A stretch of DNA of 48,566 bases, from positions 1 through 48,566 of the forward strand of contig MHXZ01000030.1 of NCBI GenBank assembly GCA_001825665.1. The letters run 5' to 3'. Position numbers and translations under genes: made by a program. Below, in pieces: positions 32,668-40,170 of the stretch. Each line of letters begins with the position of its first letter. The first letter of the stretch is position 1. This stretch comes from Planctomycetes bacterium GWF2_41_51. Lineage in GTDB: Bacteria > Planctomycetota > Phycisphaerae > Sedimentisphaerales > UBA12454. The notes under the pieces are model-generated. The model worked only from the letters and a program-made list of their open reading frames with translations. It was not told where the DNA came from and ran no database searches.

Positions 32668-33366
32668 CTACCGCGAAAGGTCAATTATTTTAGCATTCAG
32701 TTGTTTGTTGGTGATGATGTACGAAGCCAGATTAAACCATCTTTTACAGCCGGCAAGAACAATACTGTCGCTGCTAACGACAATTTTATCGCTTCTCTTC
32801 AGCTCGCCGTCCGGATTATCGAATAGTTTTACTTCTCGGCCTGTTTCCGTCTCGATAATCTTCTTCAATCTCCCGCTGTTCGAAACCGGCTTATCCAAAA
32901 GCCATTCGACTCCACCTGTTTTCAATTCTTTAAGACTTTCATCGATAAGTTTGATTGCCGGAATTGTCTCCGAAACTTTCCTGTATGTCCCATGCAACCC
33001 AGCCAAATCCCGAAAGCATCCATCCCGGCCGATGAAAATAAACGCTCCGCTCATCGCCGCCTCAATCGTTATCAGCACATTATAGCCGTCAATAATTACC
33101 ATTTCCCCGGCCGGTTGCTGCACTTGCCTCGCAATTCTAAATTCTCTGTCCTGATTCGAACAGCAGCTTCGCATTATCGCAAGTCTTTGGCGGTCGGTAA
33201 GTGCGAACTTATCGCCGACAAGTTTCAGCGAAGCCTTTTGTGGATAATTTTTTGTTAGAAGTAGTGAGTAATCTGCCGACCCCTGTTGCAGCAGGGGGAT
33301 ATTTTCACCGCTGAACAACTCATTATCCTGCGGATTTGACCCTCTATGTTTTCGTTTGTCAGGCAT
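32668..33366 (-). CDS. DUF434/DUF5616-domain protein
   Basis: 232 residues. The N-terminal DUF434 part shows KHRGSNPQDNELF and SLKLVGDKFALTDRQRLAIM; the C-terminal DUF5616 part shows MVIIDGYNVLITIEAAMSG, reminiscent of NYN/PIN-type nucleases, with a conserved Asp after two hydrophobic residues. Function is unestablished for the family; an RNA-related nuclease is a guess from the second fold. It is divergent from murE with about 60 nt between starts. Confidence 0.8.
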   Translation of the reverse strand: MPDKRKHRGSNPQDNELFSGENIPLLQQGSADYSLLLTKNYPQKASLKLVGDKFALTDRQRLAIMRSCCSNQDREFRIARQVQQPAGEMVIIDGYNVLITIEAAMSGAFIFIGRDGCFRDLAGLHGTYRKVSETIPAIKLIDESLKELKTGGVEWLLDKPVSNSGRLKKIIETETGREVKLFDNPDGELKRSDKIVVSSDSIVLAGCKRWFNLASYIITNKQLNAKIIDLSR

Positions 33367-33426
33367 TTTTTAAATTATACATTATTTATTGTTGATATTG
33401 AACAAAAACGTATGTTAAATATAGCT

Positions 33427-34884
33427 ATGACACTTGAACAATTATTAAAACTCGTTGAGAAAAAACCGCTCGTTTGGCGGCCGCGTGTTTGCAGCGATTC
33501 ACGAAACATTCGCCAGGGCGATATCTTCGTTGCCGTTAAAGGCTCTAAGATGGACGGCCACAACTTTATTGGCCTCGCCGCCGTTTCTGGTGCACGTTAC
33601 ATCGTTACCCAGCAGCCCGCACAAGTCGCATCCGCCGAGGTAATCCAAACGGACGACACAACAAAAGCTCTCGGCCTTCTTTCACAAGCCTATTATAATT
33701 ATCCTAACAGCAAACTTGTGAATCTCGCGGTTACCGGAACCAACGGAAAGACGACCACGACATATATGGTTCGCTCGATAATTTCCAACAGCGGAAAAAA
33801 ATGCGGCCTCATTGGAACAGTAATGATTGACTTGGGCGATGGCCGGGACAACATCGAGTCCAAAATGACTACCCCTGATGCCCTCGAGCTTGCCTCCTAC
33901 GCCGAAAAGATGGCTGTCGCCGGTTCCCAGTATATGATTATGGAAGCCAGTTCTCACGCAATCGAGCAGAATCGCCTTGCCGGAATCGACTTTACCGCCG
34001 CCGCCTTCACAAACTTTACAGGCGACCACCTCGATTATCACAAAACAATGGAAGCCTATCTCGCCGCCAAGCTGAGGCTTTTCGAAAATCTTTCACCAGA
34101 CTCAACTGCGATAATTAATAAAGATGACCCCGTTTGCGAACAGGTCGCCGCCGCCACAAAGGCCAACAGAATTTTCTATTCCCTTTCAGCGCCCGCCGAT
34201 TTAACCATAAAACAAATATCGATGGACATTAACGGAACCGTTTTTGACATCCTGTACAAAGGCGAAAAGGCACGCGTTTCTTCGCCGCTCATTGGCGAGC
34301 ACAATTTGAGTAACCATCTTGCCGCCGCTGGTTTAGCTCTCGGCGCAGGCTTCGACCTCAAAACTATCGCAAAAGGCCTTTCAAAATTAGACGTAGTACC
34401 CGGCAGGCTCCACAAAGTCCCCTCAAAAAGGGATTTTACAGTCCTCGTCGATTACGCGCATACCGATGATGCTCTAAAGCACGTTCTTTCGACTCTCCAG
34501 CCATTATGCAGAGGTCGGCTGATTACCGTCTTTGGCTGCGGCGGAGACCGCGACAAAACAAAACGCCCTCGAATGGCACAGGTTGCCCAGCAATATGCCA
34601 ATCGTATTTTCGTAACAAGCGATAATCCTCGCTCGGAAAAACCGATGTCGATTATCGAAGACGTCCTCGCAGGCTTCACTAATCCGCAGGCCGAGAACAT
34701 CACCATCCAGCCCGACAGGAAAAAAGCTATCGAGGACGCTATTTGCGATGCCAAATCCGGCGATATCGTTCTCATTGCCGGCAAAGGTCACGAAAATTAT
34801 CAAATCATCGGTGCCGAAAAACAGCATTTCAGCGACATCGAAACCGCAGCAGAATGTTTGCAGTCTTCACCGAGCTTAGTCTAA
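33427..34884 (+). CDS. murE: UDP-N-acetylmuramoyl-tripeptide synthase, meso-DAP-adding (MurE)
   Basis: Cytoplasmic Mur ligase adding meso-diaminopimelate to UDP-MurNAc-L-Ala-D-Glu with ATP. N-terminal CSDSRNIRQGDIFVAVKG, P-loop TGTNGKTTTTYM (Lys ~108), EASSHAIEQNRL, FTGDHLDYHKTMEAYLAAK with the carbamylated-Lys region, and DNPRSE (~399), the block that recognises meso-DAP. About 485 residues, normal. I start at the ATG at 33427 (MTLEQLLKL); upstream in-frame ATGs at 33412 and 33346 add residues without homology. murF follows after 3 nt. Confidence 0.96.
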   Translation: MTLEQLLKLVEKKPLVWRPRVCSDSRNIRQGDIFVAVKGSKMDGHNFIGLAAVSGARYIVTQQPAQVASAEVIQTDDTTKALGLLSQAYYNYPNSKLVNLAVTGTNGKTTTTYMVRSIISNSGKKCGLIGTVMIDLGDGRDNIESKMTTPDALELASYAEKMAVAGSQYMIMEASSHAIEQNRLAGIDFTAAAFTNFTGDHLDYHKTMEAYLAAKLRLFENLSPDSTAIINKDDPVCEQVAAATKANRIFYSLSAPADLTIKQISMDINGTVFDILYKGEKARVSSPLIGEHNLSNHLAAAGLALGAGFDLKTIAKGLSKLDVVPGRLHKVPSKRDFTVLVDYAHTDDALKHVLSTLQPLCRGRLITVFGCGGDRDKTKRPRMAQVAQQYANRIFVTSDNPRSEKPMSIIEDVLAGFTNPQAENITIQPDRKKAIEDAICDAKSGDIVLIAGKGHENYQIIGAEKQHFSDIETAAECLQSSPSLV

Positions 34885-34887
34885 AAC

Positions 34888-36273
34888 GTGATACCTTTAG
34901 ATATCAAAAAACTTGCTGAAATTTTAAGTATAGGGGCAGACCTGCGTGTCTGCCCGAAAACTCAAATCTTTAGCGTCTGCATCGATTCCCGCAAAGCAAC
35001 TCCCGGCTGCGTCTTTGTCGCCATCAAAGGCGAAAACCACGATGGCCACAATTTCATAACCCAGGCTTTCGAGAATGGCGCCGTCTGTGCCGTCTGTAGG
35101 GTGGGCTTTGCCGTTAGGCATCCTGTGGACAGCCCACGCGGTAGTTCGGACAAACCGATTTTCCTCGTCGAGGATACAATCGAAGCTCTCGGCCGACTTG
35201 CAAAATACGTCCGCCAAAATTCAAATTACAAAGTTATCGCCCTCACAGGCTCCGCAGGTAAAACTACCACAAAAAACATTCTCAGCCACGTTTTAAAATC
35301 TAAATTCAAATGTTTCTCCTCGCCCAAAAGTTTCAATAACAACATCGGCGTTCCGCTCACAATTTTCGACGCCCCCGATGATACCGAAATCCTCATTTCC
35401 GAACTTGGCAGCAATCACCCCGGCGAAATCGAGCAGCTAACCAAAATCATCCAGCCCGACATCGCGCTCATAACCACAGTCTGCCCGGCCCATCTCGAAG
35501 GTTTTGGCAGCCTCGACGCTATTGTAAAAGAAAAGGCGTCCATTGCCGCAGGATTGCAGCAGGATTGCAAATTTTTTATCAATGGCTCAATCGAAAAACT
35601 CGTCTCCCATTGCCGTACCCAAAAAATTAAATATGAAACTTTCGAAACTCCTTCCGAAGTAAAACTCACCGGCCATAAAAGTACTTTTATTATCGATAAC
35701 GTTATAGTCAACCTTCCTCTTGCCGGCAGGGCGAACGTCGAAAATACCATAGCCGCATGGACAATCTGCAAAAGTCTCGGCCTTTCAGCTTCGCAGTTCG
35801 CAGATGCTCTCATTTCGATAAAACCCGTCGATATGCGTATGGAATGTATGAAACTCGGTTCGGCAATGGTTCTCGCCGACTGCTACAACGCAAACCCCGG
35901 CTCAATGGCAAACGCAATCGAAACGCTCTATCTCATTTCGCAGCAGGAAAATAAAAGACCGGTTTTCATCTTCGGCAGAATGGGCGAACTCGGCATACAC
36001 AGCGAAAAACTCCATGCCGAACTCGGTGAAAAAATCGCGAAATTTAAAATACCATTGGCGCTCACAATCAAAGGCGACTGTTCAATCACCGCGCAAACAG
36101 CCCATAAAATGGCCGATTACGACATCGCCGTCAACGTTTTTGAAAATCTTTCACAGCTCTGCGATAATCTGTACAAATTTGTCAAACCTGACGATATAAT
36201 ACTGGTCAAAGCTTCTCGCAGCGAACGTTTCGAAACGGTCCTCGAAAAGTTAAAGGATTTTGTAGGACAATAA
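34888..36273 (+). CDS. murF: UDP-N-acetylmuramoyl-tripeptide--D-alanyl-D-alanine ligase (MurF) with two in-frame palindromic repeats
   Basis: 461 residues, GTG start 3 nt after murE. Mur ligase blocks: CIDSRKATPGCVFVAIKG, P-loop LTGSAGKTTTKN, SFNNNIGVPLT, ELGSNHPGEI and ADCYNANPGSMANAIETL. Two stretches do not look like MurF. GADLRVCP (34934-34957) is encoded by a palindrome GGGCAGAC-ctgcgt-GTCTGCCC. CRVGFAVRHPVDSPRGSS (35095-35148) is encoded by a copy of the GTGGGCT...AGCCCAC repeat that is also intergenic at 39628 and 40247. Both fall in the N-terminal substrate domain, between core strands, and keep the frame, so the enzyme is probably still active. Confidence 0.94.
   Translation: MIPLDIKKLAEILSIGADLRVCPKTQIFSVCIDSRKATPGCVFVAIKGENHDGHNFITQAFENGAVCAVCRVGFAVRHPVDSPRGSSDKPIFLVEDTIEALGRLAKYVRQNSNYKVIALTGSAGKTTTKNILSHVLKSKFKCFSSPKSFNNNIGVPLTIFDAPDDTEILISELGSNHPGEIEQLTKIIQPDIALITTVCPAHLEGFGSLDAIVKEKASIAAGLQQDCKFFINGSIEKLVSHCRTQKIKYETFETPSEVKLTGHKSTFIIDNVIVNLPLAGRANVENTIAAWTICKSLGLSASQFADALISIKPVDMRMECMKLGSAMVLADCYNANPGSMANAIETLYLISQQENKRPVFIFGRMGELGIHSEKLHAELGEKIAKFKIPLALTIKGDCSITAQTAHKMADYDIAVNVFENLSQLCDNLYKFVKPDDIILVKASRSERFETVLEKLKDFVGQ
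34931..34955 (+). repeat. Palindromic repeat inside murF (GGGCAGAC type)
   Basis: TAG followed by GGGGCAGAC, ctgcgt and GTCTGCCC: perfect 8-bp arms (34934-34941 and 34948-34955). It encodes GADLRVC in frame. I found no second copy in the window. Similar short palindromes are known as dispersed repeats in several bacterial groups. Confidence 0.65.
35096..35141 (+). repeat. GTGGGCT/AGCCCAC palindromic repeat inside murF
   Basis: Starts GTAGGGTGGGCTT and ends AGCCCACGCGG like the two intergenic copies, but its loop is longer by 21 nt. Arms GTGGGCT (35101-35107) and AGCCCAC (35131-35137). It is read in frame as part of MurF. Confidence 0.7.
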
Positions 36274-36280
36274 TAAGGAT

Positions 36281-37420
36281 ATGTTATATCATCTGTTTTC
36301 ATTTTTGCAGGAGTTCACAACTCGCTCACTTGGTTTTTATGCCTGGCAGGAAGTTTTATTCCGCTGCATTATGGCCGCACTCACAAGTCTCGCCGTCGCA
36401 TGGTTCACCGGCCCGCGCATCATACGCTGGCTCATGAGAAAAAAAATCGGCGACCGTCCCGAATTCCACCACGAAAAATTAAACGCCCTCAATAAGGAAA
36501 AAGAAAACACCCCGACAATGGGCGGCCTGATTATCCTCACCGCACTAATGGCCGGCACTTTCCTATGGGCAAAGCTTGACAATCCCTTCATTCAGAAAGC
36601 GATTATCTTGATGATATGGTTTGGCGGAATCGGCGCCGTTGACGATTGGCTCAAACTCACCAGCAAAATCCGTCACCGCAGCCGCAATGGCCTCAAACCT
36701 TGGGAAAAGCTCGCCTTCCAGCTCGGCGGGGCGGTACTCATCGCCGCGTTTTTATATTTCGACGTCCAGAAAATTCCCGATGCGACGCGCCTTTGGCTTC
36801 CCTTCTATAAATATGGCATTCAAATCAGCGCCTGGTTTTTCATCCTCATCGCAATTTTCTACATAACCGCCACCAGCAACGCCGTCAATCTCACCGATGG
36901 CATGGACGGCCTCGCCGCCGGCTGCGTCGCGATTGCAAGTATGACCCTGACCATTCTCTGCTACGTCGCTTCCGAATCGATGACAAGAACTTCGACAATG
37001 ACATGGGCAGGCTATCTGCTCCTGCCGCACATTCCCCACTCCGGCGAGCTTTGCATATTTTTCTCCTCGATACTCGGCGCAACAATGGGCTTCCTCTGGT
37101 TCAACTGCCATCCCGCACAAACTTTCATGGGCGATATCGGCTCATTGCCGCTCGGTGCCGCGATGGGTTATGGCGCATTGGTTACAAGAAATGAAATCCT
37201 GCTCCTGATTATTTGCGGCGTGTTCGTTATGGAACTTGCCAGCGTAGTCCTGCAGGTCGGCTATTTCAAATACAGCGGCGGAAAAAGAATCTTCCGCTGT
37301 GCCCCGATCCATCATCATTTCCATCTTGGCGGTTGGTCCGAACCTCAGGTCGTCGTCCGTTTCTGGCTCCTCGCCGCTGCTTTCGCCGCTTTCGCCTTAG
37401 CAACCCTAAAGATTCGTTAA
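36281..37420 (+). CDS. mraY: Phospho-N-acetylmuramoyl-pentapeptide transferase (MraY)
   Basis: Integral membrane enzyme making lipid I from UDP-MurNAc-pentapeptide and undecaprenyl phosphate. 379 residues with about ten hydrophobic segments and the family blocks NTPTMGGLIIL, NAVNLTDGMDGLAAG (catalytic Asp), FMGDIGSLPLGA and APIHHHFHLGGWSE. It lies 7 nt after murF. The dcw-type run stops here: the next genes on the other strand are a toxin-antitoxin pair whose last stop codon overlaps the mraY stop. Confidence 0.97.
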   Translation: MLYHLFSFLQEFTTRSLGFYAWQEVLFRCIMAALTSLAVAWFTGPRIIRWLMRKKIGDRPEFHHEKLNALNKEKENTPTMGGLIILTALMAGTFLWAKLDNPFIQKAIILMIWFGGIGAVDDWLKLTSKIRHRSRNGLKPWEKLAFQLGGAVLIAAFLYFDVQKIPDATRLWLPFYKYGIQISAWFFILIAIFYITATSNAVNLTDGMDGLAAGCVAIASMTLTILCYVASESMTRTSTMTWAGYLLLPHIPHSGELCIFFSSILGATMGFLWFNCHPAQTFMGDIGSLPLGAAMGYGALVTRNEILLLIICGVFVMELASVVLQVGYFKYSGGKRIFRCAPIHHHFHLGGWSEPQVVVRFWLLAAAFAAFALATLKIR

Positions 37421-39660: not shown

Positions 39661-40170
39661 TTAATAGTGATGAATAAAAGTTTTTATTTTCATGACAAAA
39701 TTCTCCGGCTCATCCGGCGTTACAACAATGATGCGATTTGTAAATCGAAGTACGACACACTTTCTCAAATCAGTTGCAAATGCCCTGTACGTCCCGAGTC
39801 TTTTATTATAAAACAATCCCGCAAAGCAGAACATTCCTCCATTGCCGAATGTCCGTATTGATTTGGCCATCGCCGTTTTATCAACTTCTGCACTTGTCAG
39901 TTCAGCCAGATCAATTTTTGTGTCCCATCCAAGCCGCTGAATAACCAATGTGTTGTTGTCAGTCAAAACATATCCCCGAATAATAAAAAATGATGAAATG
40001 ATAAGGATTGCCAAAGGCAAAACAACCATTCCCAAAATCCAGCCGATATTATGCTTCGGTCCTGTATTAATGCCGATTATAGAAATCCCAACTAAAAAAA
40101 TTATGCACGCCGAAGTCGATATTATAAGAAGGGGACCCCACGGCGCTTTGAATCTTATCTCATTATTCAT
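39661..40170 (-). CDS. Membrane protein with bacterial PH-like domain
   Basis: 169 residues. Two N-terminal transmembrane segments (LLIISTSACIIFLVGISIIG and ILGMVVLPLAILIISSFFI) are followed by a ~100-residue beta-rich domain with the bPH pattern: YVLTDNNTLVIQRLGWDTKIDL, a glycine-rich loop FGNGGMFCFAG and CVVLRFTNRIIVVTPDEPENF. Function unknown; such proteins are often seen as small membrane-associated accessory proteins. No operon partner. Confidence 0.72.
   Translation of the reverse strand: MNNEIRFKAPWGPLLIISTSACIIFLVGISIIGINTGPKHNIGWILGMVVLPLAILIISSFFIIRGYVLTDNNTLVIQRLGWDTKIDLAELTSAEVDKTAMAKSIRTFGNGGMFCFAGLFYNKRLGTYRAFATDLRKCVVLRFTNRIIVVTPDEPENFVMKIKTFIHHY

Follow-up and report, generated by a model that had tools for sequence, protein, structure and literature searches.

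Two palindromes within murF of Planctomycetes bacterium GWF2_41_51 are GTAG-tagged REP elements that lie in frame within the MurF coding sequence. They very probably belong to the kind of REP moved as a hairpin by RAYT, having been kept in frame in two MurF loops where other REPs later landed or were exchanged in different species. Intragenic GTAG REPs are already known as 'REP-decorated proteins' (Di Nocera, De Gregorio and Rocco, 2013; PMC3733652), with precedents in Opitutus terrae, a member of the same PVC superphylum, and including double insertions (PMC3733652). What stands out here is that, in more than one instance, a given loop bears different REPs from one congener to the next. The features concerned lie in a stretch of 48,566 nucleotides (the window) and are collected in Table 1.

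Table 1. Coordinates of murF, its REP elements and neighbouring features in the window.
Feature	Position	Strand	Remarks
murE	33346-34884		flanks murF
murF (UDP-MurNAc-tripeptide--D-Ala-D-Ala ligase)	34888-36273	+	461 aa, GTG start; ORF, Pfam and NCBIfam murF
Site 1, GTAG-type REP, GGGCAGAC family	34930-34955	+	degenerate tag (ATAG); encodes GADLRVCP, residues 16-23
Site 2, GTAG-type REP, GTGGGCT family, long-loop sub-type	about 35095-35142	+	TGTAG...GCGG encodes CRVGFAVRHPVDSPRG, residues 70-85
mraY	36281-37420		flanks murF
Intergenic GTGGGCT REP, short-loop	39628-39652	+	window copy, exact GTAG tag
ORF	39661-40170	-	169 aa
Intergenic GTGGGCT REP, short-loop	40247-40271	+	window copy, exact GTAG tag

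The murF gene lies with murE on one side and mraY on the other, its product matching TIGR01143 (371 bits against a cut-off of 289 bits) and aligning with E. coli MurF (1gg4) at E 2e-55 with gaps at both REP places. Relatives share the N-terminal residues that precede site 1, which places this site within the coding sequence. The gene had been called essential, which cannot be assumed since Planctopirus limnophila can do without murABCDEFGJ (PMC10632474). At site 1, about 45 nt into the gene, the palindrome GGGCAGACctgcgtGTCTGCCC (34934-34955; GGGCAGAC and GTCTGCCC separated by 6 nt) forms a hairpin with a stem of 8 and a loop of 6 and a single-strand DNA fold of -8.7 kcal/mol (z -3.8). At site 2 the arms TGTAGGGTGGGCT and AGCCCACGCGG give a stem of 7 and a loop of 23 nt with a fold of -12.4 kcal/mol (z -2.9), a loop longer than published for GTAG REPs, which have a stem of 5-13 bp and a loop of 2-20 nt (PMC3733652). 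The original prediction of two palindromes in frame within the 461-aa MurF is borne out, with chance expectations of 0.00 and 0.01 for the two patterns in dinucleotide shuffles of the window. Rfam gave no RNA-family match at either murF site. Site 2 had also been placed in one family with the two intergenic window copies. This holds for the GTGGGCT family as such, but the long-loop form is a separate sub-type, the short copies having a stem of 7 and a loop of 2, and its single further copy in the genome is intergenic (L014). The two short-loop window copies stand as direct repeats around the one 169-aa ORF.

A count of both palindromes through the genome, as had been proposed, returned further copies of each, with a minority in genes. 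In the 4.83-Mb assembly the GGGCAGAC/GTCTGCCC palindrome has five exact copies (reversed-pattern control, none) and the GTAGGGTGGGC head occurs at 12 sites, including the two intergenic window copies (control, two on one strand). The genus sample comprised seven genomes, the one under study and G001 to G006. Exact patterns, which give lower bounds, recovered at least 9 GTGGGCT copies in the genome under study, 28 in G001, 10 in G002 and 4 in G005 as against 0, 0 and 1 in G003, G004 and G006, and at least 5, 22, 10 and 9 GGGCAGAC copies as against none in G003, G004 and G006, with reversed-pattern controls for both families giving none in all seven. Four of the seven genomes therefore carry both families as repeats, at copy numbers that are low for REPs, and the other three have next to none. 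The 22-nt murF palindrome has an exact match, GGGCAGACCTGCGTGTCTGCCC, in G001 (C92) and in G007 (C3), a genome of the same family. An unpaired GTAG stands directly before the GC-rich hairpin in nearly all copies, being exact at site 2 and in many genome copies, with ATAG at site 1 and in some other GGGCAGAC copies. Head-to-head pairs (BIMEs) of the form GTAG-GGGCAGAC...GTCTGCCC-spacer-GGGCGAAC...GTTCGCCC-CTAC were seen at L238, L239, L273 and L274, intergenic loci among them. The assignment to the GTAG super-family follows from the tag, the BIME pairs and the flanking of a RAYT gene.

That RAYT gene is found in the sister species G005 (L268:1465-2007), where it scores 182 bits with NF047646 (cut-off 80) and has GTAGGG(G)TGGGCTTTAGCCCACGCGG of the GTGGGCT family on either side. 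The link in G002 is weaker, involving a Y1-transposase ORF (Y1_Tnp; L288:1701-2312, minus strand) that contains one in-frame GGGCAGAC/GGGCGAAC BIME and has a second on its 3' flank. The in-frame copy encodes GADLRVCP, the octapeptide of MurF site 1. In the assembly under study, which is 95.6% complete, none of the seven Y1_Tnp genes is flanked by either murF REP family, and its RAYT-like genes have other hairpins at their flanks. The arrangement resembles BIMEs and REPtrons in its intergenic inverted REP pairs and REP-flanked RAYT, but the REPtron is seen in the sister species and was not found in the own assembly. The activity suggested for the repeat system in the original prediction is putative for this genome.

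About four-fifths of the copies are intergenic. Genes hold about 10 of 46 GGGCAGAC copies in the four genomes and 2 of 12 GTAGGGTGGGC sites in the genome under study, a depletion with binomial P < 1e-16 and < 1e-5, respectively, at an assumed coding fraction of at least 80%. Coding sites are tolerated by REPs rather than preferred or sought, which contradicts the suggestion that the system uses coding targets. The same distribution bears on whether the palindromes are a planctomycete counterpart of the Rickettsia palindromic elements (RPE), that is, a separate family specialised for coding sequences. In keeping with such a counterpart, in-frame copies occur in several unrelated proteins, and Di Nocera et al. 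discussed RPE-4/6 copies within Rickettsia genes alongside intragenic REPs (PMC3733652). Compared by description, RPE (Ogata, Claverie and co-workers, cited in PMC3733652) likewise give peptide to proteins that are not related to one another, presumably at surface positions that tolerate it, and RPE-1 is described as longer (PMC3733652). RPE are, however, palindromic repeats mainly inside coding sequences, whereas coding copies are the minority here and the family is RAYT-linked, with its REP identity given by the GTAG tag, BIME pairs and RAYT flanking, making a Rickettsia-type family very unlikely. The likeness to Rickettsia put forward in the original prediction is apt as a statement of how the palindromes work, by giving in-frame peptide to proteins, but the system is GTAG-REP/RAYT and not RPE.

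Among the congeners, MurF identity places the genome under study with G005 (80% identical, the sister-species locus L061 being 79-81% identical to the window), G001 with G002, and G003 with G004 and G006. REPs in MurF are confined to the genome under study, G001, G002 and G005, and alignment of the relatives confirmed that G003, G004 and G006, which lack the repeats, also lack REP residues in MurF. At site 1 the GGGCAGAC REP of the genome under study has as its counterpart a GTGGAC/GTGGGCT-like REP in G002 (TGTAGGGTGGACTTTGACCCACGCTG), while G005 has no recognisable REP. At site 2 a short-loop REP occupies the same codons in G005 (L032, L061; TGCAGGGTGGGCTTTAGCCCACGC) and a decayed REP is present in G001 (L037; TGCAGGCTGGGCTTTAACTCAAACGG), with none in G002, G003, G004 or G006. 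The two segments had been read as insertions of 8 and about 18 residues. The in-frame REP peptides are real, but relative to G005 site 1 gains only two residues net, and site 2, with a segment of about 16 residues against the 8-residue short REP already held by G005, gains eight. Such small net gains at both sites indicate that the REPs partly replace loop residues rather than being purely added.

This patchwork also weighs against retention of the palindromes for regulation, for instance as an RNA hairpin that lies close to the start codon and tunes translation or mur-mraY expression. The closeness of site 1 to the start of the gene and its good fold would suit such a role, and REPs have often been treated as RNA elements (PMC3733652), but there is no conservation, as the REP-less sites in relatives attest, and when 57 murF genes from the order were scanned for perfect hairpins, neither loop stood out and no significant hot spot emerged, leaving regulation a highly improbable explanation. 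Chance or local selection on a loop peptide without mobile repeats would accord with loops that differ in length and sequence across relatives, but with exact 22-nt copies elsewhere against an expectation of about zero, and with GADLRVCP recurring in an unrelated G002 transposase, it deserves practically no credence, a chance origin of the palindromes being refuted by the repeat copies.

An AlphaFold model of MurF (26 sequences, mean pLDDT 91.7) puts the REP residues in loops between conserved secondary-structure elements, in agreement with their earlier placing between conserved strands. Residues 76-86, within the site 2 REP, are the sole segment with pLDDT below 50 and are modelled between strands 67-71 and 91-94. 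Helix 6-12 and strand 29-31 enclose the site 1 residues, which are modelled as coil and belong to a block with values of about 70. In the model, REP-encoded residues are low-confidence loops in an otherwise confident structure.

A RAYT-moved origin of the murF REPs would entail their transfer as single-stranded hairpins landing widely, with gene-breaking insertions lost and frame-keeping ones in permissive loops persisting and then drifting. The murF copies would have survived because the frame was kept and because both landing places were surface loops of MurF domain 1 that vary in length, where loop residues would have been replaced or extended with the conserved strands and catalytic core untouched. 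The same permissive loops would later have been hit by, or exchanged for, other REPs in different species. The GTGGGCT REP meets a stop in two of its six reading frames (TAG in the tag, TGA on the reverse strand), leaving four usable for coding insertion. The insertions were presumably neutral for the MurF enzyme, and the manner of loop replacement outlined here is likewise presumptive.

MurF is one of several REP-decorated proteins in these genomes. In a PfkB-type kinase of the genome under study, GTAGGGTGGGCTTCAGCCCACGCGG encodes CRVGFSPRG, corresponding to an exact 8-residue gap in the top two solved homologues (2abq and 2jgv). In G005 and G001 a GGGCAGAC/GGGCGAAC BIME encoding GADLCVCPKRANTQ(V/I)RPY lies within about two codons of that place, while pfkB of G002 and of more distant relatives has neither. 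This BIME (L273/L274) has a 5-nt spacer and a length of 57 nt, or 19 codons, and so keeps the frame, as compared with the 1-nt spacer and 53 nt of an intergenic G005 BIME (L239). The pfkB of the genome under study keeps KAAK after its REP, resembling an empty site, and G005 and G001 have lost those residues, on which grounds the REP and the BIME look like independent events, though a BIME once shared may instead have been lost and a new REP then gained. Elsewhere, an antisense GGGCAGAC REP lies in the GH20 protein of the genome under study, and REPs or BIMEs lie in long open frames of MnmE, a peptidase M56, TrpE/PabB and a TPR-containing protein within the genus and of a GGDEF protein in G007.

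Three loops thus hold different REPs in different congeners: murF site 1 (GGGCAGAC against the GTGGAC/GTGGGCT-like REP of G002), murF site 2 (long-loop REP against the short REP of G005) and pfkB (GTGGGCT REP against the BIME of G005 and G001). A wider reading, that occupied coding loops are themselves landing or exchange sites at which REP-for-REP exchange yields species-specific loop peptides, is tentative and on balance doubtful. A parallel exists in recB of two Xanthomonas species, where different REPs lie at about the same site (PMC3733652). The present elements share with the known REP-decorated proteins the GTAG tag, short GC-rich hairpin, head-to-head dimers, RAYT association and in-frame position in unrelated proteins, but differ in organism and proteins, in having fewer copies per family, in the REP-for-REP differences at three loops among congeners and in the one 23-nt loop. 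They are a clear example, with the phylogeny resolved, of peptide given to conserved enzymes by RAYT-linked REPs, in a phylum with hardly any such description. The empty, single-REP, dimer and decayed loop versions of the sister genomes form a natural series on REP entry into genes, which also bears on whether enzymes tolerate or use the added peptide. Annotators should be aware that GADLRVCP, CRVGFSPRG and GQTHRSAPT are repeat-encoded peptides.

Other repeat-like segments were observed in the same proteins. The PfkB-type kinase of the genome under study (L021/L272) has another insert around residues 240-262, PLIYQGVSEPRPLGSGNQKDV, which derives from CCCCTGATTTATCAGGGG and GAGCCGCGACCGTTAGGGAGCGG and near which G005 has a different repeat-like SEPRASATG and other relatives none. 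A TrpE/PabB-like enzyme of G002 (L327:550-1938, plus strand) contains a GTAG BIME in frame together with CHSRESGNPDF, resembling a CGTC-type REP peptide. A search of murF for 16-mers repeated in genome samples mainly returned AT-rich noise. Among candidate repeats at murF site 1, the TTTCAAA-like loops of G001 and G006 were rejected with only one extra copy, in G006, as was the CGTC-like palindrome of G033, which has no second exact copy in that genome. In other families of the order, either a CGTC-like palindrome or arrays of heptamers (CGACGAG, TACGCAA) occupy the site 1 loop (G022/L053, G034/L098, G018/L045, G048/L050 and G033/L058), the CGACGAG arrays being found again elsewhere in several of these genomes. 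As the hairpin scan gave no significant hot spot, a hairpin hot spot across the order stays a lead and is not claimed. TTACCAA heptamer-like arrays also form part of the coding sequence for the Mur ligase middle domain, in a variable stretch, in G034/L098 and G022/L053, corresponding to residues ~228-262 of the MurF described here.
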